DNA of 59,647 nt from an uncultured Bacteroidota bacterium (GTDB taxonomy: Bacteria > Bacteroidota > Bacteroidia > Chitinophagales > Chitinophagaceae): NCBI GenBank assembly GCA_903887005.1, contig CAISOH010000007.1:1-59647 (forward strand), in the 5' to 3' direction. Below, piece after piece: positions 2,454-25,641 of this stretch. Below the pieces are notes generated by a model that did no database searches, was not told the origin of the DNA, and saw only the letters and a program-made list of their open reading frames with translations. Position 1 is the stretch's first letter, and each line of letters begins with the position of its first letter. The position numbers were made by a program, and so were the translations under genes.

Positions 2454-3821
2454 ATGAGAAAAATATATATCATTGGCGCTATGGCATGTCTGTTTGCCGC
2501 ATGTAAGCCCAATGTAAGCATTACAACAAAACTAACCCAGGGAAACGCTGACTTCTCCAATTATCTCGCAATAGGCAATTCGCTCACCGCGGGATATGCC
2601 GATAACAGCCTCACGGTTTCCGGGCAATTGAATTCTTATCCGCAAAGGCTATTTGAACAGTTTCAGTTGGTAACCAATGTAAAAGGTACATTCGTGCAAC
2701 CATTAGTGAACGGTAACAGCGGGTATCCCGGCCCTAAAATGGTATTGGGAATGACCCATAGCCTGTGTACTACCGATTCTTCACTGGGGCCGGTAAACTA
2801 TACCGGGCCTATTGATTCTATGGGCAGTTATCGTTATATCAGTACTGTAAATAACGGGCAGATAAACAATATAGGTGTGCCTGGTATCCGTGCGGTTGAT
2901 TACCTCGTGGGAAATTATGCATTGATGAATTCATATGCCGCACGGTTTTATAATAGTATGATTGGTACGCCATTGGATGAGCTGGCTTACAGGGTACATA
3001 CCCTACATCCAACTTTCTTTACAATGTGGCTTGGAGCTAATGATGTATTAGGTTACGCAACAAACGGCGGCAAAGGTGACGGCAGCGGCGCTGTTGCGCC
3101 CATCGTTCCTGGTACGTATTTATTTAACACCTTTGACATCAGTCCTTACACTCAGTTTGATACAGCCTATGACAGAGCATTGAATATGGCAATTAGTACC
3201 GGCGCCCAGGGAGCGCTGATTAATATTCCGGATATTACAAGCCTTCCATTCTTTAACACTATTCCAATGGATGGTTTAATATTAACCCGCCAAACCCAGG
3301 TTGACAGCCTTCAAAAAAAATGGGGAACTGTTTTGCATAAAGTTGCCCAGCTTGGCAATAATGATTATATCGTAGAACAACACGATGGCCTGGTAAGGCA
3401 GGCTGTACCAGGAGAACTTTTGTTGCTTACTGTACCATTGGATTCAATCCGATGTGCGGGATGGGGCATCACAAAAGCGATCCCAAGGGACTATGTAATT
3501 ACTACTGAAGAGCTCCAGCATATAAGACTTGCTACTACTAACTTTAATAACTTTATTCAGTATGAGGCAACAAGGCATAAATTAGCGTATGTGGACATGA
3601 ATGCTTTTATGTCGCAGATAGCTTCAGGTTATACATACAACGGCATCACCTACAGCACCCAATATATCAGCGGCGGCGCCTTCTCTCTTGATGGTGTTCA
3701 CCCTACCCCACGCGGGTATGCACTTATAGCTAACCAGATACTAAGTACAATTAACAGCTACTACAAGTCTAATATGCCAATGCTTGATGTGAATAAATAT
3801 CATGGTATTGATTTCCCATAA
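2454..3821 (+). CDS. SGNH/GDSL-hydrolase family lipoprotein
   Basis: Lipobox LFAACK, AIGNSLTAGYADN block, GANDVLG, C-terminal DGVHPTPRGY. Confidence 0.8.
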   Translation: MRKIYIIGAMACLFAACKPNVSITTKLTQGNADFSNYLAIGNSLTAGYADNSLTVSGQLNSYPQRLFEQFQLVTNVKGTFVQPLVNGNSGYPGPKMVLGMTHSLCTTDSSLGPVNYTGPIDSMGSYRYISTVNNGQINNIGVPGIRAVDYLVGNYALMNSYAARFYNSMIGTPLDELAYRVHTLHPTFFTMWLGANDVLGYATNGGKGDGSGAVAPIVPGTYLFNTFDISPYTQFDTAYDRALNMAISTGAQGALINIPDITSLPFFNTIPMDGLILTRQTQVDSLQKKWGTVLHKVAQLGNNDYIVEQHDGLVRQAVPGELLLLTVPLDSIRCAGWGITKAIPRDYVITTEELQHIRLATTNFNNFIQYEATRHKLAYVDMNAFMSQIASGYTYNGITYSTQYISGGAFSLDGVHPTPRGYALIANQILSTINSYYKSNMPMLDVNKYHGIDFP

Positions 3822-3843
3822 CAGACAGGATGAATAAATCATA

Positions 3844-3876
3844 AAAAATGCCCCGGATTTCCGGGGCATTTTTTTA
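3844..3876. terminator. Rho-independent terminator between convergent genes
   Basis: AAAAATGCCCCGGA-TT-TCCGGGGCATTTTTTT. Confidence 0.85.
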
Positions 3877-3913
3877 TGAAAATTATCAGGAACAAGAATA
3901 CATTTCCGGTAAA

Positions 3914-5038
3914 TTACTCAACGCACTTCATCATAGTATCCCACAGTTTCTTAGCGGAGTTATTCCAGTCGAATTTCTTTATCTGCTTCCTCGCATTAAT
4001 GATAAGCTTTGCACGCAGGGCCTCATCTTTATAAATCTGATGCATTTTATCAGCAATATCCTCCGGATCTGAAGGATTTACCAACAGTGCGGCATCGCCC
4101 GCAACCTCTGGCATGGAAGATGTGTCGCTTACTATGGCAGGCACATCACATTGCAGCGCTTCCAGTATCGGGATACCGAATCCTTCAAAAAGGGATGCAT
4201 ATACTAATGTATAGGCGCCTCCAATGAGTTTGGAAAGTGCATCTACATTCATATATCCTACCCATTTCACATCTTCTTTAAAAGGCATTTCAGCACGCAT
4301 CTGTTCTACTTCCTCGTACTTCCACGCCGGCCGGCCGGCAATAACGAGTTTCATATTGGTGTGCTGGCGCTTTTTGAACAGGATGAATGCTTTCAGCAGG
4401 TTCACGATATTTTTTCGGGGATGCAGGGCGCCGGCAAATACAAAATATTCACAGCCGTCCGCATATTGTTTCTTTACAGCTTCACGTTCTGCAAAATCCA
4501 GTGGTTTATATTCATCATGCGCACCGTTATATACCACATCTATTTTATCCGGAGATATACCGTAGCTTTTTATTATATCGTTTTTAGAAAAAGTGGAAAC
4601 GGTGGCAATACGTTTGGCCTTTTTTGCGAATAATGGTGAGTAATGCCGCCAGTAAAGCCGGTGGCTGATCACAAAGTGATCCGGGTAGTGCTCAAAAGCA
4701 AGATCATGTATCACCAGGCAAGTAGGCACCTTTGTGCTCAGCGACATATAACTGTCGGGCGACAAAAACAGGTCTATCTTATACTTGCGCAGCATATAAG
4801 GTATGCTCCACTCAAACCAGATATAGAACAATATGGGGTGCCGCGCCTGCGGATGAACTACCACAGCCGTGACATTGGGGGCAAAAATAAATAAAGGATT
4901 GTATGGCCTGTCGAAAAAGAAGAAGAACTCATGCTCGGGGTGATCCCGTACAATTCTTTCCAGAGTCTGATAAGTAAACCAACCTATACCTTCCAGCTTT
5001 CCTTTTAACAGTAACCGTGTATTTACACCTATTCGCAT
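3914..5038 (-). CDS. Glycosyltransferase family 4 (GT-B) protein
   Basis: FVFAGALHPRKNIVNLLKAF, SLFEGFGIPILEALQCDVPAIVSDTSSMPEVAGDAALLVNP. Confidence 0.9.
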   Translation of the reverse strand: MRIGVNTRLLLKGKLEGIGWFTYQTLERIVRDHPEHEFFFFFDRPYNPLFIFAPNVTAVVVHPQARHPILFYIWFEWSIPYMLRKYKIDLFLSPDSYMSLSTKVPTCLVIHDLAFEHYPDHFVISHRLYWRHYSPLFAKKAKRIATVSTFSKNDIIKSYGISPDKIDVVYNGAHDEYKPLDFAEREAVKKQYADGCEYFVFAGALHPRKNIVNLLKAFILFKKRQHTNMKLVIAGRPAWKYEEVEQMRAEMPFKEDVKWVGYMNVDALSKLIGGAYTLVYASLFEGFGIPILEALQCDVPAIVSDTSSMPEVAGDAALLVNPSDPEDIADKMHQIYKDEALRAKLIINARKQIKKFDWNNSAKKLWDTMMKCVE

Positions 5039-8847: not shown

Positions 8848-10234
8848 ATGAAAATGCGTTCATTAGTTTTCTCGATACTGAGAAGCCTCGGAACATGGTC
8901 CCGCTTTTTTTGCGGGAGGGGTTTGGGGTTTTTGTTTTTCATGTTTTCCAGCGTTCATGCACAAATCATTACTACTATTGCAGGCTGCAGTACAGGTGGA
9001 TACAGCGGTGACGGCGGCCCGGCAACTTCTGCCAAACTAAGAGGGCCTGTTAATATTGCTGTGGATATGAATGGCAATTTGTATATAAGTGATTCACCTA
9101 ATGAGGTGGTGCGAAAAGTAAATACTGCAGGCATCATCAGTACTTTTGCAGGTATAGGAACAGCGGGCTTTAGCGGAGATAATAGTCCGGCAACTGCCGC
9201 TAAAATTTATTGGCCTCAAAGTTTTGCTTTTGATAAAAAAGGCAATGTATATTTTTTAGATCAAGGAAATCACCGTGTTCGTAAAGTGGATGCTGCTGGG
9301 ATTATTACCACTTTTGCAGGCAATGGCGCTTCCTATTCAGGCAGTGGTGTGCCCGCAACTGCAACAGGAATAACCGAAGGGGGGGGCTGGTATTTGCAGT
9401 GATGCAGCAGGGAATATTTATATTGCATCTGGTCTTCATATCCTCAAGGTTGACACTTTCGGGATGCTAACTATTTATGCAGGTAATGGTAGTAGCAGCT
9501 ATTCTGGCGATGGAGGACCCGCAATTGCTGCAGGACTGCCTTGCATGGGTATGATAGCAATGGATCCCTTAGGAAATTTGTATATTTCCGATGGGGCTAA
9601 TCGCATTCGAAAAATAAATACTGCAGGTATTATTAATACTATCGCTGGTACTGACTTAGTAGGTTTTAGCGGGGATGGAGGCCCGGCAACTGCCGCCCAA
9701 CTTAATGCAGCTGCAACCGTATTCCCGGATAATTGCGGCAATTTTTATATTGGAGATGGATATAACAACCGTATACGTAAGGTGGATGGGCATGGTATCA
9801 TTACCACTTTTGCAGGGAATGGTACACAAGGATTTACCGGGGATGGTGGTCAGGCAATCGCTGCTGAATTCTATCATCCGGGTGTTTATCTTGATAAGAA
9901 CGGCAATATATATATAGGTGATGCTGGTAATTATAGTGTGCGCTACATAAAGATGGATAGCTGCAAGAGCGTGATGGAAGCCCCTACCATCCACCAAGGG
10001 GAGGAGGTGGTATCTGTGTTTCCTAATCCTGTAAATGATGAATTGCATATAACTGGGGTTACAGAGAATGTAAAATACAGTATTCTTAATGTGGCGGGAA
10101 TGTGCCTGCAGCAGGGATCACTGAAAAAAGGGGAGAATATTTTGTCTTTGCGATATTTCGCACAGGGAATTTATATTCTTGAAGTGATTTCTGCTGATGG
10201 TGTGAGGAGTATGCATAGGGTAGTAAAGGAGTAA
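8848..10234 (+). pseudogene. NHL-repeat, T9SS-sorted secreted protein interrupted at a G8 tract (ORFs 8848-9402 and 9464-10234)
   Basis: AQIITTIAGCSTGGYSGDGGPATSAKL repeats continue in the +1 frame after GGGGGGGG at 9379-9386; C-terminal VFPNPVNDELHITG sorting domain. Confidence 0.75.
8885..8935. repeat. REP-like palindromic repeat inside coding sequence
   Basis: Reverse complement resembles 43866..43918 (CCCCTCCCG..CGGGACNANGTTCCGNGG). Confidence 0.55.
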
Positions 10235-10253
10235 TGGCTGAATTGTGCAGCGA

Positions 10254-10293
10254 AACCCCGTCAGTACACCTTTTTCTGGTGTCAGACGGGGTT
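10254..10293. repeat. Imperfect palindrome / hairpin
   Basis: AACCCCGTC-AGTACACC-ttttt-CTGGTGTCA-GACGGGGTT. Confidence 0.6.
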
Positions 10294-10428
10294 GTGCGGT
10301 GGGGAATGTTAAGCTTTCTATCCATGCTCCAGCAGCCCACGCTACATATCTGTAAGCAGCATTCAACAGTTGGTGAGTAAACGAATACCGGAATAATAAA
10401 CCCCGGTTTCCCTGTTTTTCCGCATTCC

Positions 10429-11379
10429 CTAACTGCCATTTTTAATTTGTTTTTCCGAAGGAATTTCTTTAACGGGCAACTCTTTGGCTTCCCGCTTTAT
10501 GATATATACAGCCGTTTCATAAATAGTAATCCCCTTACCAAATTTCATGGCATATACTTTTGTAAACTCCGCACCAAAGTAGAGGATTATGGAAGAATAG
10601 TAAACCCACGACAAAAGAATAATAATGGAAGTGGCGGCGCCATAAGTATTAAAACTCGCAGAACTACCGAGATAATATCCAATAAGAAATTTGCCACCCA
10701 GAAATAGTAAACCCGTGAAGCCGGCTCCTGCAAAAGTATCTTTCCATGATATTTTTGCATCAGGCAATACTTTATATATAACCGCAAAGAGAAATGTTAC
10801 TACAGCAAAAAGCAATAGGAGATTGATGTCTTTTATAAGCAGGATATTGGCAAAGCCCAGATAATGCTGTAAGCGGCCTGTAAGAGCGTCAATAAGCACA
10901 TTAACAAACAATGTTACTAACAGCAAAAAACCAATACCAATAATAATGGAAAAAGATAACAGCCGGTCTGTAATATATTTCAGCCAGCCTCTTTTGGGTT
11001 TAGCTTTAATGGACCAGATATAGTTAATGGAACCTTGTATCTCTGTAAATATACCGGTAGCGCCAAACACCAGTACAACAACCCCAATGATACCAAACAT
11101 AGTAGTATTATTTTGTTTGCCGATATTATCCAATATATTCCTTAATTCTTTTGCTCCCGACTGCCCTACGAGATTGCCAAGCTGGTAAAATACCTTTGTG
11201 GTTACATCAGCTTTTTTTAAAAAAAGCCCAAGTAAGGTGGTTACCACCAGCAAAAGAGGCCCAATGGAAAATATAGTATAATAGGCGAGTGATGCGCTGA
11301 GTTTGGTTGCATTATCATCAGAGAACTCATTTCCTGCATCTTTTATCAGATTGAAGTATTCACGTAGTTTGGATGCCAT
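10429..11379 (-). CDS. YihY/virulence factor BrkB family membrane protein
   Basis: ATKLSASLAYYTIFSIGPLLLVV, GATGIFTEIQGSINYIWSIKAKPKRGW, YILLSWVYYSSIILYFGAEFT. Confidence 0.9.
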   Translation of the reverse strand: MASKLREYFNLIKDAGNEFSDDNATKLSASLAYYTIFSIGPLLLVVTTLLGLFLKKADVTTKVFYQLGNLVGQSGAKELRNILDNIGKQNNTTMFGIIGVVVLVFGATGIFTEIQGSINYIWSIKAKPKRGWLKYITDRLLSFSIIIGIGFLLLVTLFVNVLIDALTGRLQHYLGFANILLIKDINLLLLFAVVTFLFAVIYKVLPDAKISWKDTFAGAGFTGLLFLGGKFLIGYYLGSSASFNTYGAATSIIILLSWVYYSSIILYFGAEFTKVYAMKFGKGITIYETAVYIIKREAKELPVKEIPSEKQIKNGS

Positions 11380-11549
11380 TGGTCATTTTAATTAATGCAC
11401 TGCAACCATAGTGCCACCAAAACGCTAATCCTTTTTTTCGTTGGTTTGGGACGACGTTTCCTTTCTTTCTTTAGTTCCTGCATTTGAGTAAGGGGTTATA
11501 GTTGTGTAAAGGATTCATCAGGAACACTATTATAGAGCATATGTATATT

Positions 11550-12488
11550 TTATACCTCGTCATCTACAGGAATAATAACAATGGGCAAATGCTTTACTTC
11601 GTGTTTAATTATATGTACAGCATTGTTTTTTACGGTAATGCCCTTTCCCCATTTCTTGGCATACACCTCTGTAAACTCAGCCCCAAAATAGAGTATCATG
11701 GCAGAATAATATATCCATGATAAAAGAAGAATTATAGAAGCCGCCGCACCATAAGCGCTGATACTCTTCGACATATTAAGGTAATAAGTAATCAGGAATT
11801 TACCGATAAGAAATAATATTCCTGTGAAAACTGCGCCTATGAGGGCGTCTTTCCAATGTATCCGGGCGTCGGGCAGTACTTTGAAGATAATCCAGAAAAG
11901 AAAAGTTACCACAACAAACAGCAAGCCGATATTTGCCCCTTTTAAGAGAAAAATATCTGCATCTCCCAGAAAGCTGCGTAAACGGCCGGAAAGCAGGTCA
12001 ATAAGTACGTTGGCAAGTAATGTTACCGTCATCAAAAGGCCTAAGCCTAATATGAGCAGGAAAGAAAGCAGGCGGTCGGTAATATATTTGAGCCAGCTTC
12101 TTTTGGGTTTGGCCTTTATAGACCAGATATAATTAATAGAGCTTTGTATCTCTGTAAATATACCGGTAGCGCCAAACACCAACACGATACCCCCGATTAT
12201 ACCAAATAAAGTAGAATGGTTCTGATGGCTGATATTTTCGAGTATGCTTTGTAATTCTGCTGCTCCTGATTTTCCAATTATTGCACCCAACTGATCAAAT
12301 ACCTGAGTGGTAACATATGGCTTTTTATATAAAAACCCCAAAAGGGTTATGACTACCAATAACAGCGGCCCGACGGAAAATATAGTATAGTATGCCAGTG
12401 AAGCGCTTAACTTGGTAGCATGGTCTTCTGAAAATTCATCAGCTGATTCCATCAGCGTATCATACATTTTGCGAACCTTAGATGCCAT
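11550..12488 (-). CDS. YihY/BrkB family membrane protein (tandem paralog)
   Basis: Near-identical motif set to 10429-11379. Confidence 0.9.
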   Translation of the reverse strand: MASKVRKMYDTLMESADEFSEDHATKLSASLAYYTIFSVGPLLLVVITLLGFLYKKPYVTTQVFDQLGAIIGKSGAAELQSILENISHQNHSTLFGIIGGIVLVFGATGIFTEIQSSINYIWSIKAKPKRSWLKYITDRLLSFLLILGLGLLMTVTLLANVLIDLLSGRLRSFLGDADIFLLKGANIGLLFVVVTFLFWIIFKVLPDARIHWKDALIGAVFTGILFLIGKFLITYYLNMSKSISAYGAAASIILLLSWIYYSAMILYFGAEFTEVYAKKWGKGITVKNNAVHIIKHEVKHLPIVIIPVDDEV

Positions 12489-12866
12489 TTGCTTATTCTT
12501 TTATCCTTCTGTTCAGGCGGATTTTTAATCCATTATTACAATGATCTGCTTTGACAGGAGCTTAATTATATATTATTAAAAACTCATTACTCACAATTTA
12601 ACATCATTTATTTAACCGTCAAAGATTGTTCTTATTTTTTGTAAATGGAATATAAATTATTTATTTCTGTTTTTTTGTCAATTTCGTTAATATTCCAACC
12701 CACATTACATAATTGTGCCAGCAGAAGGCCAATCAAATATCCCAATTAAAACTGTTCAGAACTAACGTTTATTTGCATATAGTTGAGTTTTAAATGTTTC
12801 TATGGCATGGTTATTAAAGATATCTTTTGTGATTGTGAAAATTAATTTGCAATATAATAACATAAT

Positions 12867-15800
12867 ATGAAACATAAATTACTTAATGCATTAACGGCAG
12901 TTATTCTGTTATTAATACCAAATGTGAATTTTGCACAGGCGCCTACCTTAGGAACTGCTGCAAATTTTGTCCTTTTTTCCAGTGCAGGTGCAGTAACCAA
13001 TTCAGGAATTTCGCTTGTTACCGGTAATGTGGGCACTAACAGCGGTTCCAGCACCGGCTTCGGTAATGTAAACGGCCAGATGCATGATAATGATGGTGTA
13101 ACCGGTTCTTGTACAGCAGATTTGCTGATAGCTTATGGCCAGCTGAATACCGCAATACCAACTTTCTTCCCATCACCTTTACTTGGAAACGGGGATACCC
13201 TTATAGCAGGTGTTTATTACATACCTGCAGCCGCAACAATGAACCTGAACCTTTTTTTAGATGCAAAAGGAAATCCCAGCGCTGTATTTATATTTCAAAT
13301 CCAGGGCGCCTTTTCAACGGGAGCATCTTCCAAGGTCAAATTGATTAATGGCGCACAGGCATGTAATGTATTCTGGAAAGTGGAAGGCCTGGTAAGCATG
13401 GCTGCAGGAACCACGATGAGGGGAACTGTTGTTGCCCATAACGCTGCCATTAATATGAACGCGAAAGATACGCTGGAAGGCAGAGCTCTTTCTATTGCAG
13501 GGGCCGTTACGGTCAATGGAGTTCTTGCATATACCCCAACTGGTTGCGGAAGTCCGACACTTACAGGGCCCGCCGCTCCGGCACTTGCTTCAACAGCCTG
13601 TTATGCACTATTTTCTGCTGACGGGCCGGTTTCAAACTCGGGCGTAACGAATATTACAGGTGATATCGGAACGAATGTAGGGTTAACTACCGGCTTCAAT
13701 CCTTTATTTGTAGCAGGCACCATTCATCCTATACCTGATGGCTCTACAGTAACATGTGCAGCCGATTTGCATAATGTATATACTTATCTCAACACACTGC
13801 CTTCCGATATTGAGTTACTGTACCCTGCCCAGTTTGGGCACAACCTGGTACTTACACCCCATACTTACATCATGAAAGCGGCCACAACATTTACTGATAC
13901 ATTATACCTCGATGGAGAAGGTAATGCCGGCGTTGTATTTGTTATCCAGATAAACGGCGCCATTTCTACAAGTACTTTTTCAAGGGTTATGCTGATAAAC
14001 GGAACCCAGGCAAAAAATGTGTTCTGGAAAGTTGATGGTGCGGTAAACATTAATGATTACTCTGTTTTCAACGGAACCATCATTTGCAATAATGCCGCCA
14101 TCAGCATAAATACAGGCGCTACAATTAACGGCAGGGCGCTTACAACTACAGGCGCTTTAACGACTATGGCAATAAATGTAATCATGACTCCCGGCTGCGG
14201 CGGCACATGTATCGCTCCGGCTATAGGCGGTTCACCGCATGTATGTATCGGTTTAACAACTACATTATCCAATACTAGCACAGGTGGTACCTGGAGCAGC
14301 AGCAACACGGCAACTGCTTCCATTGGTACTTCTTCAGGCGTGGTTACCGGTAAAATAGCGGGAACAGCTACTATTACTTATACATTGCCGGCAGGTTGTA
14401 CAAGTACACTTACCTTCACAGTCAATCCGTTACCATCAGCTATTACAGGACCAGCCAGCGTATGTGCAGGGGCTACAACGACCTTAAGTGATGCTATGAC
14501 AGGAGGTACCTGGAGCAGCAGTAATACATTGCTTGCAACAGCAGGCACAGGCTTTGGTACTGTAACAGGAGTAGCAGCAGGTACGCCAACTATTACTTAT
14601 TCTTTGGCACCGGGTTGCTCTGTAACAAAAACCATAACAGTAAGCCCGTTACCTAATGCAGGCAGCATAACCGGCGTTTCCAATGTATGTGCTGGCTCTG
14701 CCATTACATTAACGGATGTTGTGTCTGGCGGTTTGTGGAGCACCAGCAATGCCAAGGCTACAGTGACCGGCGGTGTTGTTACAGGAGTTGCAGCAGGTAC
14801 GGATACAATCAGATATACTGTTACCACCTCAGGCTGTTCAGCAACAGCAACAAAAACTGTAGCAGTGAGTTCATTTCCGCTTCCTGGTAGTATAACCGGT
14901 GCATCAGGTGTATGTGTTGGCGCAGCTATAACATTAACAGATATTGTAACCGGCGGCGTATGGAATACCAGCAATGCAAAAGCTACAGTGTCAGGTGGTG
15001 TTGTTACAGGAATTACAGCAGGTACCGATACAATTATTTATTCTGTTACCAATGTATGCGGCACAGCGAATACGACAAAAACAGTTACTATAAATCCATT
15101 ACCAGGTCCCGGCAGTATAACCGGCGCATCAGATGTGTGTGTTGGTTTGGCCATCCTGTTAAGTGATGGTATAGCTGGCGGAGTATGGAGCAGCAGTAAT
15201 ACAAAAGCCAAAGTGGCAAGCGGCCTTGTGACCGGAATTACAGCAGGTGCGGATACGATTATTTATACAGTTATCAATGGTTGCGGCACAGCAACTGCAA
15301 CAAAAGCGATTACTGTAAGTTCATTTCCTGTAGCAGGCAGTATAACAGGTTTGCCAGGTGTATGTGTCGGTGCTGCAATCACATTAACAGATGGTATAAC
15401 AGGCGGTATTTGGAGCAGCAGCAATGCGAATGCCTCAGTTCTGGCAGGAGTTGTTACCGGCGTTTCAGCAGGTATGGCGACTATAAGTTATTCAGTTATC
15501 AACGCATGTGGAACAGCTAACGCAACTTTAGTAATAACTATTAATCCGTTACCAAATGCAGGCACTATAACGGGTGAAGACAGTGTTTGTGTTGGAAATA
15601 CAATTATCCTAACGGATCTTGCCGGCGGCGGAATATGGAACAGCAGTAATACTTCCATCTCCGTTATTTCAGGTTCCGGGTTAGTTTCAGGTATTTCAGC
15701 AGGTATTATTACGATTGTTTATAGTGTATCCAATAGTTGCGGTATTGATGTTGCGGTATTTCCTGTAAAAGTTATTTCATCCCTGGTATGCAGCACTTTG

Positions 15801-16097
15801 ATGAATGCGGATCTTAATACAGCATTTACAGATTTGAACCTATACCCGAATCCGAACCAGGGAACGTTTACAGTTAATGGTACACTGGGAACTCCTGTAA
15901 CTACCGGAGATGCAGAAGTATCTCTGGAGATAACAAATATGCTGGGCCAGGTTGTATATAACAATAAGGTAATGGCACGGGATGGTATCATTAATGAAAA
16001 AATACAGTTCGGCGCCAGCCTTGCAAATGGCATCTATATACTGAATGTAAAAACTGCTACTGAACATAAAGTGTTCCACTTTGCGCTGAAACAATAA
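12867..16097 (+). CDS. Giant secreted protein: two tandem DUF3494 (ice-binding-like) domains, about 7 Ig-like (Big2-type) repeats, T9SS C-terminus
   Basis: GTAANFVLFSSAGAVTNSGISLVTGNVGTNSGSSTGF / CYALFSADGPVSNSGVTNITGDIGTNVGLTTGF; repeated GSITGxSxVCVGxAITLTDxxxGGxWSSSN; C-terminal LNLYPNPNQGTFTVNG. Confidence 0.85.
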   Translation: MKHKLLNALTAVILLLIPNVNFAQAPTLGTAANFVLFSSAGAVTNSGISLVTGNVGTNSGSSTGFGNVNGQMHDNDGVTGSCTADLLIAYGQLNTAIPTFFPSPLLGNGDTLIAGVYYIPAAATMNLNLFLDAKGNPSAVFIFQIQGAFSTGASSKVKLINGAQACNVFWKVEGLVSMAAGTTMRGTVVAHNAAINMNAKDTLEGRALSIAGAVTVNGVLAYTPTGCGSPTLTGPAAPALASTACYALFSADGPVSNSGVTNITGDIGTNVGLTTGFNPLFVAGTIHPIPDGSTVTCAADLHNVYTYLNTLPSDIELLYPAQFGHNLVLTPHTYIMKAATTFTDTLYLDGEGNAGVVFVIQINGAISTSTFSRVMLINGTQAKNVFWKVDGAVNINDYSVFNGTIICNNAAISINTGATINGRALTTTGALTTMAINVIMTPGCGGTCIAPAIGGSPHVCIGLTTTLSNTSTGGTWSSSNTATASIGTSSGVVTGKIAGTATITYTLPAGCTSTLTFTVNPLPSAITGPASVCAGATTTLSDAMTGGTWSSSNTLLATAGTGFGTVTGVAAGTPTITYSLAPGCSVTKTITVSPLPNAGSITGVSNVCAGSAITLTDVVSGGLWSTSNAKATVTGGVVTGVAAGTDTIRYTVTTSGCSATATKTVAVSSFPLPGSITGASGVCVGAAITLTDIVTGGVWNTSNAKATVSGGVVTGITAGTDTIIYSVTNVCGTANTTKTVTINPLPGPGSITGASDVCVGLAILLSDGIAGGVWSSSNTKAKVASGLVTGITAGADTIIYTVINGCGTATATKAITVSSFPVAGSITGLPGVCVGAAITLTDGITGGIWSSSNANASVLAGVVTGVSAGMATISYSVINACGTANATLVITINPLPNAGTITGEDSVCVGNTIILTDLAGGGIWNSSNTSISVISGSGLVSGISAGIITIVYSVSNSCGIDVAVFPVKVISSLVCSTLMNADLNTAFTDLNLYPNPNQGTFTVNGTLGTPVTTGDAEVSLEITNMLGQVVYNNKVMARDGIINEKIQFGASLANGIYILNVKTATEHKVFHFALKQ
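14431..15780 (+). repeat. In-gene tandem repeats of about 220 bp encoding Ig-like modules
   Basis: Recurring ATAACCGGCGCATCAG..TGTGTTGG..ATAACATTAACAGATGGTATAACAGGCGGT..TGGAGCAGCAGCAAT. Confidence 0.8.
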
Positions 16098-16528: not shown

Positions 16529-17782
16529 ATGAAGAAAAGGAAATTATTGATTGCAATTGGGTTATTTGTTATACCCGCAACACTCCTAACGTTCTGCACC
16601 AAAAACAACCAGTTGGTTGACACATCAGCAGGACTGAATACCAGTAACTTATATTCAGTAAAGGGCACAGCAATCCTTAAACCAATCAGCGGTTCCGCAT
16701 GGGATGGTACTATTGAAACAGTATGGAATAACGCTCCAAAACTTACAGTACATGCCGTAGTTCCCGATTTGGGGAATAACACTTTTAGCGGATTTATTGG
16801 TAATGCTACTGATGTAACGATGCGCTCCTTATACGATGCCAATAACATCTATTTCCTGGTAGAATGGAATTGTGCTCAAAAGAACCTTGCATCATCACCA
16901 TGGTACTTTAACCCCAATACGCATCTTTGGGCGCAGGAAAGCGGCGCTCCGGTAAAGAATGCAGACAGCACAACATACAGGCCCGCTTTTATCCAGGACC
17001 AGTTTACGATGATTTTTAACATTGCTAATTCATGCCCGTCATTTAATACACAATCCTGCTATGGCGTCTGCCATGCAAACTCGTCCTTCGGTGGCGTCAC
17101 CTCACCTTCAGGAGGGGTAATGCACACCAGCGGCCCGGGTGAATTCCTGGATTGCTGGAGGGCCCGCATGCTGCAGGTAGTCAATGTTAACCAGGCCAAT
17201 GATGTTTATATAGACTGGGGCGGCGGCACATTAGATCAGAATGAAATTCATAATGATCTCCAATTATCAACAACAGACGGTGGATTCAATAATAAACAAA
17301 GCTTAAAAATTACCGGGACCGGAACCAAAGTAAACGTACCAATGTATGTTGTACCAGCCGGAGGTTATTCTAATGGTGCGCTTTTACAAAGCGATACACT
17401 AGCAGGTGGAAAAGCAGTAAAAGTTATCGCAGTTGACTCCACTGGGGTTCTTACCCTTGCCAATTCAACTACTATTGATCCACGCACTGCAACATCGGGC
17501 ACGATATACCAGCAAGTGGGTAGCGGCGACGGGCCTAACTGTATTCCCGGAAGTTTTGTATCTCCATATACCGGCAGCCGCGGTGACATTACGGCCAACG
17601 CCTTTTGGACAGGAACAGGATGGAGACTACTTCTGAAGCGGGCATTGAAAACAACTGATGCAGCCTATGATGTTGACTTATCTTCATTGGTCAATCAACC
17701 ATTTGGTATTGGCGTCATGTTTAACGGCGCAGATAATGAACATGCAATTGTTAGCGGCATGACATTGCATTTCAATAAATAA
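16529..17782 (+). CDS. Ethylbenzene-dehydrogenase-like haem-binding lipoprotein with CYGVCH motif
   Basis: Lipobox LLTFC; SLYDANNIYFLVEWNCAQKN and CYGVCHANSSFGG blocks typical of EBDH-related cytochrome proteins. Confidence 0.65.
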   Translation: MKKRKLLIAIGLFVIPATLLTFCTKNNQLVDTSAGLNTSNLYSVKGTAILKPISGSAWDGTIETVWNNAPKLTVHAVVPDLGNNTFSGFIGNATDVTMRSLYDANNIYFLVEWNCAQKNLASSPWYFNPNTHLWAQESGAPVKNADSTTYRPAFIQDQFTMIFNIANSCPSFNTQSCYGVCHANSSFGGVTSPSGGVMHTSGPGEFLDCWRARMLQVVNVNQANDVYIDWGGGTLDQNEIHNDLQLSTTDGGFNNKQSLKITGTGTKVNVPMYVVPAGGYSNGALLQSDTLAGGKAVKVIAVDSTGVLTLANSTTIDPRTATSGTIYQQVGSGDGPNCIPGSFVSPYTGSRGDITANAFWTGTGWRLLLKRALKTTDAAYDVDLSSLVNQPFGIGVMFNGADNEHAIVSGMTLHFNK

Positions 17783-17809
17783 TCCACGATTCACCATAAT
17801 TTTTTCTTC

Positions 17810-18205
17810 ATGAAAAAAATAATTGCAATAACTGCATTTTGTGCGCTGGTTTTACTTATTGCGCCGGGTTGTTATAAGGTAGCTACCGTTCGTTTAGACA
17901 ATTCACCTGCTATAACAAAATCAGTTAGCCTAAGTAAAGATATAGTTCCAATATTCAGCAAAAACTGCGCATTATCAGGTTGCCATAGTTCTGGCGGGCA
18001 TGTACCGGACTTATCTGTAAATGATGCGTATAATTCGTTGATTAAGGGTAAATATATTGATATATCCAGCCCTTCGAATAGTGCACTTTATTTATGGTTA
18101 ACCGGTAAAAAGGCGGAATCCATGCCCCTGGGCTCCAGTAATAATCCATCAGACATAAATGCACTTACCCTTGCATGGATAACACAAGGTGCAAACAATA
18201 ACTAA
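17810..18205 (+). CDS. Small lipoprotein with cytochrome-c-like CX4CH motif
   Basis: Lipobox LLIAPGC; KDIVPIFSKNCALSGCHSSGGH. Confidence 0.65.
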   Translation: MKKIIAITAFCALVLLIAPGCYKVATVRLDNSPAITKSVSLSKDIVPIFSKNCALSGCHSSGGHVPDLSVNDAYNSLIKGKYIDISSPSNSALYLWLTGKKAESMPLGSSNNPSDINALTLAWITQGANNN

Positions 18206-18216
18206 AACTATTAAAA

Positions 18217-19143
18217 ATGAAAAAAATAAAAATAAATTTCACCGGATTTATTAGCCATACCAGCCTGGGCATTCTCACTATTTTGCTGATGATTAGCAGT
18301 GCGGCAATAGCTCAGACAGAAGGTACACAGGATACTCCTGATAATGTAAGCAAGGCAAAGAAAAGCCCGGTAAAAAATACTTTTGAAAGTAACTGGATTA
18401 TAGAGAACCAAACCGTAATGGTGCCTTCAAAAGGTACTTTGGAATTTGATATACAACATCGTTTTGGCATTGTAAACAATGGGTTTAACGATTTTTACGG
18501 AATGTTTGCACCTGCCAATATCCGGTTAGGTCTTGAATATGTGCCGGTTAAAAATCTGCAATTAGGAACAGGCCTTTGCAAAGACAGGAACCAGCTGGAT
18601 TTCAATGGTAAATATGCTATTGCAAAACAGACAACAGGAGCTATGCCCGTCAGCATCACCTATTATGCCAATATGGTAATAGACCTGCGTGATAAATCAA
18701 ATTTCGTTAAATATGGAGACAGAATATCTTATTTTAACCAGTTGATGATTGCAAGAAAGGTAACCGATAAATTTTCTGTCCAGGCTGCCATCAGTGTGTC
18801 GCATTTCAATAATGTTCAGGGATATATAGATTCAGAAGGCGTTGTAAGGAATACAGTAAAAAATGATCAGTTTACTTTGTCATTCATGGGTAGGTATAAG
18901 TTGTCGGAAAAAATGGCAATTCTTGCGGATTACGATCAGCCGCTGACCCAGAATGTAACCAACAATCCACATCCGAACCTTTCACTTGCCCTCGAAATCA
19001 CTACCAGCTCACATTGCTTCCAGGTACTTGCAGGAAACAGCCAGTTCATACTTCCGCAGAACAATGCGTTGTACAACCAGAATGATTATAAAAAAGGGCA
19101 ATTCCTGATAGGGTTTAACATGACCAAATTGTGGAGTTTTTAA
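18217..19143 (+). CDS. Outer-membrane beta-barrel protein (DUF5777-like)
   Basis: Signal peptide, FDIQHRFGIVNNGFNDFYGMFAPANIRLGLEYVP, alternating aromatic/polar strands. Confidence 0.7.
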   Translation: MKKIKINFTGFISHTSLGILTILLMISSAAIAQTEGTQDTPDNVSKAKKSPVKNTFESNWIIENQTVMVPSKGTLEFDIQHRFGIVNNGFNDFYGMFAPANIRLGLEYVPVKNLQLGTGLCKDRNQLDFNGKYAIAKQTTGAMPVSITYYANMVIDLRDKSNFVKYGDRISYFNQLMIARKVTDKFSVQAAISVSHFNNVQGYIDSEGVVRNTVKNDQFTLSFMGRYKLSEKMAILADYDQPLTQNVTNNPHPNLSLALEITTSSHCFQVLAGNSQFILPQNNALYNQNDYKKGQFLIGFNMTKLWSF

Positions 19144-19187
19144 TACGGAAATACCTTTCTTGATTTTTAACCAAAAAACAAATAAAC

Positions 19188-19583
19188 ATGAGAAAAACAA
19201 TTTTCTTAAGCGCTATAACAGGTGTTGCTGTGTTGTGCTTTGCCTTTGTGCCGGATAAAAAACCATGGAATGCTCCGGCAGCCGCCGCTTCCAAAGCCAA
19301 CCCGCAAAAAGGCGCAGAGTCCATCAGCAATGGTAAAGCTTTGTATGCAAAACATTGCCAGTCGTGCCACGGTAAGACCGGCATGGGCGATGGTACAAAA
19401 GCTTCCGAACTAAAAACGGAGCCGGGCGATTTTTCTAAAGCAGCATTTCAATCCCAATCGGACGGTTCTGTTTTTTATAAAATATCAGAAGGCAGGGATG
19501 ATATGCCAAGTTTTAAGAAAAAAATGCCTGATGCCAACGATATCTGGGATGTAGTGAACTTTGTAAGAACATTGAAAAAATAA
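19188..19583 (+). CDS. c-type cytochrome (single CXXCH)
   Basis: GKALYAKHCQSCHGKTGMGDG ... ISEGRDDMPSFKKKM ... DVVNFVRTL. Confidence 0.9.
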   Translation: MRKTIFLSAITGVAVLCFAFVPDKKPWNAPAAAASKANPQKGAESISNGKALYAKHCQSCHGKTGMGDGTKASELKTEPGDFSKAAFQSQSDGSVFYKISEGRDDMPSFKKKMPDANDIWDVVNFVRTLKK

Positions 19584-19609
19584 TGCCCGGTAACTTGTAT
19601 TTAATAGAT

Positions 19610-19654
19610 GTCCCCAGATGTCCCACACCTTGAAGGTGTGGGACATCTGGGGAC
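19610..19654. repeat. Perfect 21-bp-stem palindrome with 3-nt loop (REP-like)
   Basis: GTCCCCAGATGTCCCACACCT-tga-AGGTGTGGGACATCTGGGGAC. Confidence 0.95.
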
Positions 19655-19725
19655 GCTGCTATCTGAACTAATCCATCCCCGGGTGCAAAATATATGTTGC
19701 CAAAACAAACAAAATCAAGGCTATT

Positions 19726-19959
19726 ATGCAAGACAAAGAACATAAAGTAACGCGCAGAAAATTTGCAGGCTGGTTAGGCGTTTTATCACTGTTTACCATG
19801 GCAGGCGCCGCATTGATGCCATGGAAAAATAAAAAAACCAAAACGGTAAAGATGCTTACCTGGGACGGAAAACTGGTAGAAATTGATGCATCTTTATTAG
19901 CCTCCGGCAGTAAGAAAATATCTGATAAGGACCTTCAGAATTGGGTAAAAACCAAATAG
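19726..19959 (+). CDS. 77-aa Tat-signal protein, putative small subunit
   Basis: TRRKFAGWLGV signal; C-terminal KTVKMLTWDGKLVEIDASLL matches a segment of the following FeS protein. Confidence 0.65.
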   Translation: MQDKEHKVTRRKFAGWLGVLSLFTMAGAALMPWKNKKTKTVKMLTWDGKLVEIDASLLASGSKKISDKDLQNWVKTK

Positions 19960-19989
19960 CTATTTGTTCTGTTTTAATAAAATTTATCC

Positions 19990-20919
19990 ATGGATACGAC
20001 CAGCACTTCACGGAAAGCGTTTCTTTCCTCAATAATAACAACCGGCCTGGCCCTTGCAGGATGTGCTCCCAAAAAGGATCCATTTGAACTGGCGGCAGGT
20101 GAGCATGCAAAGGCAAGCGGTGAAAAGGTAAAACTTTTATCGGTGGACGGAGAAGTGATTGAAGTGGACAAGGCTTTTCTAAGGCCGGTCCCGGAAATGC
20201 CAGCCGTTTCAAACAGCGAAGAAAGACGTGGTATTCCCGGGAAAAAGTTTGTGATGGTCATAGACCTTTCCAGGTGTAAAAATCTCAGGTTTTGCGAGAA
20301 AGCCTGCAATCATGCGCATCATTTGCACACCGGCCTCAACTGGTTAAAAGTGTATCCGATGGATGAGGCGGAGCATACAGCCCCTTACTGGGAGCCTACT
20401 ATGTGTATGCACTGCGATGAACCGCCCTGTGTAAAAGTTTGCCCTGTTGACGCAACCTTTAAAAGACAGGACGGATTAGTGCTTATTGACAGCGACCGCT
20501 GTATAGGGTGCAGGTTTTGTATGGCTGCCTGTCCATATTCAGCAAGGGTTTTTAACTGGGAAAAACCAGATACACTTACAGCTGAAGAGGTGTGCCAGCC
20601 CTATTCCTGTGAAACCAGTGTGCCGCAAAAGGTTGGTACCGTAGGCAAGTGTGATTTTTGTCCGGACATGGCCCGTAAAGGAGAATTACCTCATTGCGTA
20701 TCAGCCTGCCCTAACGGGGTTTACTTTTTCGGGGATTTGAATGAAGACAGCGTTACCAATGGCGCAGAAACATTCCGGTTCAGCGAACTGATAAGGGACA
20801 AGGCAGGATACCGGCTAATGGACGACCTTGGCACAAAACCAAGCGTATATTATCTGCCGCCGGTAGCCAGGAATTTCCCGTTTGAGAAAGGACTTGAAAA
20901 TGATAATGAAAAAAGTTGA
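19990..20919 (+). CDS. 4Fe-4S dicluster electron-transfer subunit (NrfC/PsrB-like), lipoprotein-type signal
   Basis: CKNLRFCEKACNHAHH, CMHCDEPPCVKVCPVDA, CIGCRFCMAACPYSAR, CDFCPDMARKGELPHCVSACPNG; signal SRKAFLSSIITTGLALAGC. Confidence 0.9.
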   Translation: MDTTSTSRKAFLSSIITTGLALAGCAPKKDPFELAAGEHAKASGEKVKLLSVDGEVIEVDKAFLRPVPEMPAVSNSEERRGIPGKKFVMVIDLSRCKNLRFCEKACNHAHHLHTGLNWLKVYPMDEAEHTAPYWEPTMCMHCDEPPCVKVCPVDATFKRQDGLVLIDSDRCIGCRFCMAACPYSARVFNWEKPDTLTAEEVCQPYSCETSVPQKVGTVGKCDFCPDMARKGELPHCVSACPNGVYFFGDLNEDSVTNGAETFRFSELIRDKAGYRLMDDLGTKPSVYYLPPVARNFPFEKGLENDNEKS

Positions 20920-20969
20920 TCATTTGAATGAAATATGATTGTAGCTTAGCATTGCTAAAGTGATGGGAA

Positions 20970-22274
20970 ATGAAAAAAACAGTTTTAACAGACGAACAGA
21001 TTATCAGCGACCTCCTGCCTAAAAAATTCGGGAAATGGGGAATGGCATGGACAGGTGTATTGGTGGTTATTTGCCTCCTAGGCATGTTTGCTTATTATCG
21101 TCAGTTAAGATATGGATTGATAGTAACATCCATGAGGGATTATGCCTCCTGGGGAATATACATTTCCAATTTCGTTTTTTTTGTGGCTATCAGCCTCGTA
21201 GGCTCTCTGATCACTGCGGTGTTGCGGTTAACCGGTGTGCGCTGGAGTACGCCATTAACGCGTATCGCAGAGATAATAGCAGTTTCTGCAATTACTTTTG
21301 GCGCCATCATTATTATTGTTGATATGGGCCGTCCTGAACGGTTTTACTATTTATTTTTATATGGCCGTCTCCAGTCGCCGATTATCTGGGATGTAACGGT
21401 TATTACTACGTACTTTTTTATCAGTGTGTTGCTGCTCTATATACCGCTATTGCCGGATATGAAAATATTGCTGGCCGGTAAAGAAAAAAAAGGAATTTAC
21501 AGATTTTACAGTTTCTTAGGTTCTTTCTGGAAAGGGACCCATATGCAATACCGGATCAGCAAAAGGGCCATCAATATTCTCTGTATCACCATTGTTCCGG
21601 TAGCGTTTAGTATCCATACGGTTACCTCCTGGTTATTTGCGACAACCTACCGGCCGGGATGGGATAGTTCCAATTTTGGCGCATATTTCATTTCCGGTGC
21701 ATTTTTAGTAGGCGCGGGCGCCGTGAGCGCTGCCATGTATGTATTCCGCCGGTTTTATAAGCTGGAGAATTACATTACCCCTGAGCACTTTGATAAAATG
21801 GGCAAAATAGTAGTGATGTTAGGTCTGTTATACCTTTACTTTAATGTGAATGAATACCTCATCCCCTATTTTAAAATGAAGAAGTCTGAAGAAGCTTTTC
21901 TGAATGGTTTATTTGTCGGGGAATTTGCACCGCTTTTCTGGTCGGCCATTTTTGGCGGAATGATCATTCCCATGATCATATTGTTGTTTCCCCGCGGACG
22001 GACTCCATATCCTATGTTTATTTGCGGAACAATGATCGTGGTAGGTGCATGGTTTAAAAGATACCTGATCGTAACTCCTACATTACTGCACCCGTTTTTA
22101 CCCATGCATAATGTTCCGGAAAGTTACAAGCATTATTTCCCAAGCTGGGAGGAGTGGGCAATTGCCTTCGGCTCGCTTGCCGGTGCGCTTTTGGTGATCA
22201 CAATTTTCGTAAGGATTTTCCCGATAATACCCATCCAGGAAACTTTAACAGAGCACCATCAAAAGGAACTTTGA
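20970..22274 (+). CDS. NrfD/PsrC-family membrane subunit
   Basis: Polytopic; SMRDYASWGIYISNFVFFVAISL, VDMGRPERFYYLFLYGRLQSPIIWDV. Confidence 0.9.
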   Translation: MKKTVLTDEQIISDLLPKKFGKWGMAWTGVLVVICLLGMFAYYRQLRYGLIVTSMRDYASWGIYISNFVFFVAISLVGSLITAVLRLTGVRWSTPLTRIAEIIAVSAITFGAIIIIVDMGRPERFYYLFLYGRLQSPIIWDVTVITTYFFISVLLLYIPLLPDMKILLAGKEKKGIYRFYSFLGSFWKGTHMQYRISKRAINILCITIVPVAFSIHTVTSWLFATTYRPGWDSSNFGAYFISGAFLVGAGAVSAAMYVFRRFYKLENYITPEHFDKMGKIVVMLGLLYLYFNVNEYLIPYFKMKKSEEAFLNGLFVGEFAPLFWSAIFGGMIIPMIILLFPRGRTPYPMFICGTMIVVGAWFKRYLIVTPTLLHPFLPMHNVPESYKHYFPSWEEWAIAFGSLAGALLVITIFVRIFPIIPIQETLTEHHQKEL

Positions 22275-22617
22275 CGGCTCCCCGAGCTACGATTTTTTAT
22301 TTTTTCAGAATAATACGGTCAACAGGGAGGCGTTTAAAATATAGGCTTTAGTACTTTGAAAGCCGTCGGTGACGGAGTTTCATTATTGCTTTCGGATGCC
22401 CTTCCGGAACATCCGGAAGAACGGGGCTTTGATTGAGCTGTGCTTTGATAAGGATGAGTGCATGTGCTCAGGGGATTTCTCCGTTTCTTCGCTCTCACCT
22501 TTTACCTCCCGGCCATATCTCTTACCCGGGACATAGTGTTAATAGCCTTGATAAAAGTTCATTATTAGTGGCTATTGCTGCCTTGGTATGAGTTTTGTAG
22601 TTTAATTCGATACGAAA

Positions 22618-23591: not shown

Positions 23592-23661
23592 TGTTGATTG
23601 ATTCGGAAAGCCTCAGTACGAGCGGGGTTTGTGCTTGTGTATTACTCACGCATTAACTTAT

Positions 23662-25641
23662 ATGAAAAGCATATTCCTTTTTTTGTTCCTTTTGCCGTTT
23701 GCAGCACAGGCCCAGATCATTACTACTATAGCCGGCGGCACTGCAACCGGGTTTGCCGGAGATGGCGGCCCTGCCTCATCCGCATTATTTTCGGCATTAA
23801 GAGGCATCGCCATTGACGGAAGGGGAAACGTCTTTGTGGCCGATGCAGGTAACCATCGTGTCCGCAGGATCGACGCCAATGGGATAGTAACCACTGTTGC
23901 AGGTAATGGCACTGTCGGCTACGGCGGTGACTGGGGTCCGGCAACAGCTGCACAGTTGAACTACCCCGCCAGCCTTGCTGCAGACAGCATAGGAAATTTG
24001 TTCATCTGGGACTCTATGAGCTACATAATAAGAAGGGTAGATACTGCGGGAGTGATCAACACGGTTGCCGGGAATGGACTTTTTGGCGATACCGGAGATG
24101 GGGGCTATGCGTTCTGGGCAGCTATAGTACCGAATGGAATGGCAGTGGATAATGCAGGTAACGTGTTTATGTGCATCGGGTCCAATCACCGTCTTCGCAT
24201 GATGGATGCCGGTTTATACATTTATCACTATGCAGGTATCAACCTTGTGTCAGGCAACTCAGGAGATGGCGGCCCGGCCAATGTGGCGAAAATGTATCAT
24301 CCTATGCGCGTCGCCACCTGCCATGACGGAACGGTGCTGATAGGCGACACTTACAATAATACGGTCAGGATGGTAGATACATCAGGGAACATTCAAACCA
24401 TAGCAGGGATAGTGCCCACATATACGGGAGGTTATGACGGGGATTTCGTATGGGCTACCTCAACGAGGCTGAATATGCCGTATGGCATTGCCAAAGACCT
24501 TGCAGGCAATGTATATATAGCCGACAATGGCAATAACCGTATCCGTAAAGTAGATGGCTATGGGATAATCAGTACCATATGCGGCAATGGCACGCCATCT
24601 TTCTCGGGAGATGGCAATGCTGCAACTGACGCTACCATTAATGCCCCGACGGATGTCGCTGTTGATGCCGCCAACAACATTTATTTTTTTGACGCAGGCA
24701 ACAGCCGTGTCAGGAAAATAAGTGGAATCACCGGCAACCTGAATATTTGTACCGGTACAACGGCCACTCTAATTGATGAAGCCGTTGGCGGTATTTGGAG
24801 CAGCAGTAATACGGTCGTAGCAATTATAGGCTCAGCTACAGGAATAGTAACTGCAGCAGCAACGGGCACTACAACAATAACGTATTCAAATGCAGGTGTA
24901 ATAGCTATCGGGCAAATGACCGTCAATCCATCGCCGGGAGCCATAACCGGGGCGCACACCCTATGCGCCGGGCAAACTGATACGCTGGCCGATACGGCGG
25001 CGGGCGGCATATGGACGAGCGGAACCATCCCGGTCGCTTCCATAGACGCCGCATCAGGGATTGTTACCGGCGTCTCGGCAGGTATTGCTTTCCTGACCTA
25101 CACATTGCCTGCCGGATGCAATGCATGGGTATCTGTAACCGTCAAAACATTGCCAGCGGCAGGTACGATACACGGCACTGACATAGTATGTCCGGGAGAT
25201 TCCGTATTACTGTCCGACGCGGTGGGTGGTGGCGTGTGGAGCAGTGACGATGACCTGATAGCAACGATATCCGGCCCGGGGAATATAATTGGTGTATCGC
25301 CGGGTATTACTACCATCTCCTATACAGTAACAAATAGTTGCGGCAGTTCATCTTCCGGGATGCCGGTTACTGTGCTTGATGCCGGGTGCTTTGTTGGTGT
25401 ACCGGTTACCGCCAATAAAAATGAGCCTCCTATCATTTTCCCTGATCCGGCTGCAAATGAAATTACGGTTATCTCAAAAAATAAGATCGGGCAACTGGTA
25501 ATAAAAAACCTCCTGGGCCAAACCGTGTATTGCCATAACCACGACAGCAATAAGGCAGCAGCCTATGTAGCCGCATTGCCCGCAGGGGTTTACATTATAT
25601 TAATCAACGGCGGTATTGCTGGTAAATTTGTAAAGGAATAA
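23662..25641 (+). CDS. NHL-repeat propeller + Ig-like (Big2-type) domains, T9SS-sorted
   Basis: QIITTIAGGTATGFAGDGGPASSALF repeats, ITGAHTLCAGQTDTLADTAAGGIWTSG modules, C-terminal IFPDPAANEITVISK. Confidence 0.85.
   Translation: MKSIFLFLFLLPFAAQAQIITTIAGGTATGFAGDGGPASSALFSALRGIAIDGRGNVFVADAGNHRVRRIDANGIVTTVAGNGTVGYGGDWGPATAAQLNYPASLAADSIGNLFIWDSMSYIIRRVDTAGVINTVAGNGLFGDTGDGGYAFWAAIVPNGMAVDNAGNVFMCIGSNHRLRMMDAGLYIYHYAGINLVSGNSGDGGPANVAKMYHPMRVATCHDGTVLIGDTYNNTVRMVDTSGNIQTIAGIVPTYTGGYDGDFVWATSTRLNMPYGIAKDLAGNVYIADNGNNRIRKVDGYGIISTICGNGTPSFSGDGNAATDATINAPTDVAVDAANNIYFFDAGNSRVRKISGITGNLNICTGTTATLIDEAVGGIWSSSNTVVAIIGSATGIVTAAATGTTTITYSNAGVIAIGQMTVNPSPGAITGAHTLCAGQTDTLADTAAGGIWTSGTIPVASIDAASGIVTGVSAGIAFLTYTLPAGCNAWVSVTVKTLPAAGTIHGTDIVCPGDSVLLSDAVGGGVWSSDDDLIATISGPGNIIGVSPGITTISYTVTNSCGSSSSGMPVTVLDAGCFVGVPVTANKNEPPIIFPDPAANEITVISKNKIGQLVIKNLLGQTVYCHNHDSNKAAAYVAALPAGVYIILINGGIAGKFVKE

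Follow-up and report, generated by a model that had tools for sequence, protein, structure and literature searches.

A conserved Bacteroidota gene cluster predicted to encode a molybdoenzyme-free, quinone-linked redox complex of the cell envelope

Alternative complex III (ActABCDEF) combines a NrfD-type quinol subunit with a periplasmic Fe-S protein and a monohaem cytochrome c. NrfD/Fe-S pairs that lack a Mo catalytic subunit have also been described before, e.g., DsrOP in DsrMKJOP. MtrCAB and other porin-cytochrome conduits comprise an inner-membrane quinone module, a periplasmic cytochrome, a barrel and haem lipoproteins, while the gamma subunits of ethylbenzene dehydrogenase and NXR have the EB_dh fold. 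The gene cluster described here shares these features with the respective systems, and has a barrel family and a small haem lipoprotein in common with a triad of Bacteroidota genes encoding a DUF5777 barrel, a YceI protein and a haem lipoprotein. It differs from each of these systems in other parts.

The window, i.e., the whole 59,647-nucleotide stretch of DNA analyzed, contains a same-strand run of seven genes at 16529-22274 (+), separated by 27, 11, 44, 142, 30 and 50 bases (Table 1). All seven open reading frames were found in the order reported in an earlier note on this DNA, and Pfam provides family matches for five of the products but none for the CX4CH lipoprotein or for the 77-aa protein (Tat77). 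A KxLxxDGxxxExD segment, compared by eye, is common to Tat77 and the N-terminal region of the Fe-S protein. The neighbors of the cluster, an ice-binding-like adhesin before it and an L,D-transpeptidase after it, are apparently unrelated. On either side of the region lie large secreted proteins (window 12867-16097 and 23629-25641) that combine Ice_binding or NHL/Big_2 domains with T9SS sorting tails.

Table 1. Genes of the cluster, in window coordinates.
Feature	Coordinates	Strand	Evidence
EB_dh-fold lipoprotein, 417 aa	16529..17782	+	Pfam EB_dh 7e-17; lipobox LLTFC23; CX3CH (CYGVCH), predicted c-type haem
Small CX4CH (CALSGCH) monohaem-type lipoprotein, 131 aa	17810..18205	+	Lipobox IAPGC21; CX4CH across family
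DUF5777 outer-membrane beta-barrel	18217..19143	+	Pfam DUF5777 9e-75; 12 predicted strands
Soluble monohaem cytochrome c (CX2CH), 131 aa	19188..19583	+	Pfam Cytochrome_CBB3 3e-12
77-aa protein (Tat77), Tat-like N-terminus (TRRKF)	19726..19959	+	Sequence; present in 40/48 loci
Periplasmic four-cluster-type Fe-S protein (DsrO/PsrB/ActB C-terminal type), Tat-like signal (SRKAF)	19990..20919	+	Pfam Fer4_11 7e-20
NrfD-family membrane subunit, predicted quinone site	20970..22274	+	Pfam NrfD 2.5e-30

Judging from sequence, we consider the product of the cluster to be, with a probability of about 0.58, a redox complex of the envelope that is linked to quinone and has no molybdoenzyme. The module is conserved in a minority of Bacteroidota. 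The reading is supported by the presence of the module in 48 loci, by a barrel adjacent to the Fe-S/NrfD genes in all 7 genomes of a phylum-wide draw that carry them, and by invariant quinone-site residues.

A scan of GTDB genomes yielded at least 562 related stretches, of which the best 80 were kept; parts were then counted in the 48 of these loci, all in other genomes, that have full flanks. NrfD was present in 48, cytochrome c in 47, the barrel in 44, the CX4CH protein in 43, EB_dh or YceI in 42 (EB_dh only in 19, YceI only in 14, both in 9) and Tat77 in 40. Isolates of Mucilaginibacter, Niastella, Flavihumibacter and Ferruginibacter are among the best 80 of the at least 562 stretches. The conservation of gene neighborhood across Bacteroidetes that the earlier note had asked about is thus evident: a matching gene order in further species and families takes it far beyond chance. 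All 48 loci also encode a membrane subunit of ~300 aa (TM300), located after NrfD in nearly all relatives and missing from the window copy, where six-frame translation of window 22275-22617, 3' of NrfD, contains no detectable TM300 remnant. Without TM300, the window copy might rely on a paralogue or be non-functional. A second set in the same genome (contig C208) has the order Fe-S protein, NrfD, TM300, cytochrome c, EB_dh protein, CX4CH protein and barrel, and a third (contig C325) consists of cytochrome c, Tat77, Fe-S protein, NrfD and TM300, beside multihaem and OmpA-cytochrome genes.

Co-occurrence of Fe-S/NrfD and the barrel was assessed in an even draw of 248 genomes across the phylum. 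Fe-S/NrfD was found in 7 of these, and a DUF5777 barrel was adjacent in 7/7, another class included. Haem lipoproteins likewise occur with NrfD in all 7, so the lack of co-occurrence that the earlier note named as refuting its reading is not borne out. The barrel alone is far from restricted to such loci, being present in 94/248 genomes. When NrfD is absent, it usually lies with a small haem lipoprotein and YceI, and in some genomes with Rieske, cupredoxin or DOMON neighbors. That is, the known triad mostly lacks NrfD/Fe-S, and has YceI in place of EB_dh. The NrfD core and the triad of the outer membrane thus constitute separate modules, which only a minority of genomes combine. A recurrent triad of a small CX2-4CH lipoprotein, YceI and a DUF5777 barrel without NrfD was observed in many Bacteroidota genomes (loci L138-L154).

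Quinone-interacting NrfD proteins, ActF not among them, have an acid, His or Ser in TMH2 and a pocket Ser (Calisto and Pereira, PMC8076601). The window protein matches the NrfD family and carries both a TMH2 acid and the pocket serine; since its Asp118 and Ser136 correspond to the published quinone residues, a quinone site is predicted. Asp118, Ser136 and Asp141 are invariant in 97/97 sequences. The best NCBIfam matches, DsrO for the Fe-S protein (181.9 bits, cut-off 200) and DsrP for NrfD (126.5 bits, cut-off 350), both fall below the curated cut-offs for DsrMKJOP membership, and no DsrM, DsrK or DsrJ was recognized among the neighbors. The pair described in the earlier note as NrfC/NrfD-type is thus indeed a NrfD/Fe-S pair, but one closest to DsrOP and ActC rather than to NrfCD. 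Likewise, its "dicluster" protein is an Fe-S protein, but of the four-cluster NrfC/PsrB type, with 15/16 Cys invariant in 102/102 sequences. In most of them, Leu or Val takes the place of the second group I Cys. In CISM proteins, this Cys is a ligand of the cluster that lies closest to the catalytic subunit; by analogy, its replacement makes a [3Fe-4S] exit cluster possible.

These components could also make up a reduced version of alternative complex III, i.e., a quinol:cytochrome c oxidoreductase in which the soluble cytochrome c, reduced by NrfD and the Fe-S protein, passes electrons to a terminal oxidase, the outer-membrane triad being separate and only co-transcribed. The closest solved NrfD structures are ActC subunits of that complex (9e-45), and the soluble cytochrome c, with CX2CH in 106/106 family members, is the most constant soluble partner (47/48). 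Moreover, the host carries haem-copper oxidases and an ACIII-type ActC, which would allow the cytochrome c to donate electrons to an oxidase. That ActC, however, also counts against this reading, as the host is already provided with one. In the NrfD tree the window family forms its own clade, apart from ActC, with 100/100 support. ActC has His139 and Asp253 at two positions (PMC5928083); the window family has Asp at the first and Leu/Ile at the second, and the ActC residues are missing in 22/22 rows. Pentahaem ActA and the fused Mo-like ActB were not among the neighbors in the window or its relatives, nor was ActD or ActF recognized beside NrfD, and the triad accompanies NrfD across classes. 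We therefore regard an ACIII-like oxidoreductase as unlikely.

NrfC/NrfD-type pairs often serve CISM enzymes, and the cluster could in principle supply the electron-transfer subunits for a Mo enzyme with its catalytic subunit encoded at a distant site of the genome. The earlier note had taken service to a catalytic subunit as the norm for such pairs, which is often so in CISM enzymes but overlooks Mo-less pairs such as DsrOP. It had also noted that no molybdopterin subunit is visible nearby, and this holds both locally and genome-wide. In the window genome (99.8% complete), the single match to PF00384 plus PF01568 is an FdhF-like ORF on another contig, the only result of the search for an orphan Mo-bisMGD subunit. 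ORFs resembling this FdhF are absent from all flanks of the relatives' loci, so homologous clusters in the flanks surveyed do not routinely include an adjacent molybdopterin subunit. Among 40 cluster-bearing genomes, PF00384 has no match in 6 and weak matches alone in 14 more; these weak matches, mostly frames of ~1,050 aa, would by their size be ActB of alternative complex III. PF02335, representing a NrfA-type nitrite reductase partner, has zero matches in the window genome. A displaced Mo subunit was rejected, with a lone Fdh-like gene on another contig and none in the flanks, and the Mo-enzyme explanation, already largely refuted, is very improbable.

On the predicted outer-membrane side, the EB_dh protein scores 62.6 bits against a Pfam cut-off of 33.3, placing it in the EB_dh haem-binding family. 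A search of its sequence against the PDB gave nothing at E 1; Foldseek comparison of its model, which is of modest quality (mean pLDDT 71), gave NXR gamma (1e-7) and EbdC (6e-6). Unlike the gamma subunits of ethylbenzene dehydrogenase and NXR, it is a lipoprotein with a CX3CH c-haem motif, without alpha or beta subunits. The motif is present in 46/48 family members, and covalent haem is thus to be expected. The small lipoprotein has CX4CH in 87/90 family members and CX2CH in 3. No obvious surface-export signal was seen by eye after the lipoprotein cysteines. The EB_dh slot is interchangeable with a YceI lipoprotein, and a dihaem variant also occurs. EB_dh is therefore not invariant, and of the surface-type haem lipoproteins and barrel that were proposed, what stands is their co-occurrence with NrfD. 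An exchangeable slot suggests that the lipoprotein side is where substrate is met.

Structure prediction of the barrel, as a single-chain AF2 model (pLDDT 82.7), gave 12 strands, with Foldseek matches to the small porins NanC, OmpG and COG4313. The known Mtr-type barrel is far wider, with 26 strands, and encloses a multihaem cytochrome; the window cluster has single-haem motifs only. An MtrCAB-like wire through the barrel is thus unlikely, the predicted structure being too narrow for MtrAB-type haems, and the barrel more likely would admit a small substrate or anchor the lipoproteins than enclose a haem wire. The conduit between quinone pool and outer membrane proposed earlier is partly upheld: its quinone link, missing Mo subunit and outer-membrane partners stand in outline, while a wire across the outer membrane is doubtful.

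The likeliest electron route would run from menaquinol through NrfD, the Fe-S protein and cytochrome c to the outer-membrane haem lipoproteins; assembly of the complex, its docking at the outer membrane and any extracellular acceptor would be further putative elements of this reading. We favor this outward direction over the inward one by about 60:40. In the inward case, the haem lipoproteins would oxidize an extracellular or periplasmic donor that enters by way of the barrel, with electrons then passing via cytochrome c and the Fe-S protein to NrfD for quinone reduction. NrfD subunits work both ways, the EB_dh fold resembles gamma subunits of oxidizing enzymes (NXR, EBDH), and a porin-like barrel suits substrate uptake. 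Haem would, however, be the sole catalytic cofactor, and monohaem cytochromes c of this kind generally have potentials too high for menaquinone reduction. As a full account of the cluster, the inward scheme is improbable, slightly more so than the ACIII-like one.

The assembly is novel and built from known parts. Returning to the quinone-linked complex, we suggest tentatively, at somewhat less than even odds, that it represents a new class of respiratory complex, a menaquinol:outer-membrane haem-lipoprotein oxidoreductase whose outer-membrane cassettes are interchangeable: EB_dh, YceI or a dihaem lipoprotein, in every case together with a small haem lipoprotein and a narrow DUF5777 barrel. If so, some members of the phylum, cultured Mucilaginibacter, Niastella and Ferruginibacter species among them, link their quinone pool to outer-membrane haem lipoproteins by a route absent from the NrfD catalogue of PMC8076601. 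DUF5777, a barrel family in more than one-third of the sampled genomes of the phylum, would gain its first functional frame. Literature searches turned up no paper on DUF5777, on NrfD in Chitinophagaceae, or on YceI in connection with either NrfD or electron transfer in Bacteroidetes.

The position of the third set of the window genome, adjoining multihaem (MtrC-like) and OmpA-cytochrome genes, ties the module to outer-membrane redox chemistry. On that contig (L032, 1-20000), the set adjoins an OmpA/Paired_CXXCH protein with 5 CXXCH motifs, a 13-CXXCH MtrC-like protein, an NHL propeller and CcsBA. Relatives have comparable multihaem neighbors (L034/L134, L037 and L038), and this type of neighborhood is possibly a Bacteroidota multihaem outer-membrane system. 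MarR-like and Cys-rich Crp/FNR-like regulators lie near several clusters (L036, upstream of a C208-type cluster; L093, L121 and L122), which suggests oxygen or redox control. At another locus (L128, 3519-15089), tandem NrfD sets (8901-14065) lie behind a hexahaem lipoprotein that contains a collagen-like segment (3519-4601).
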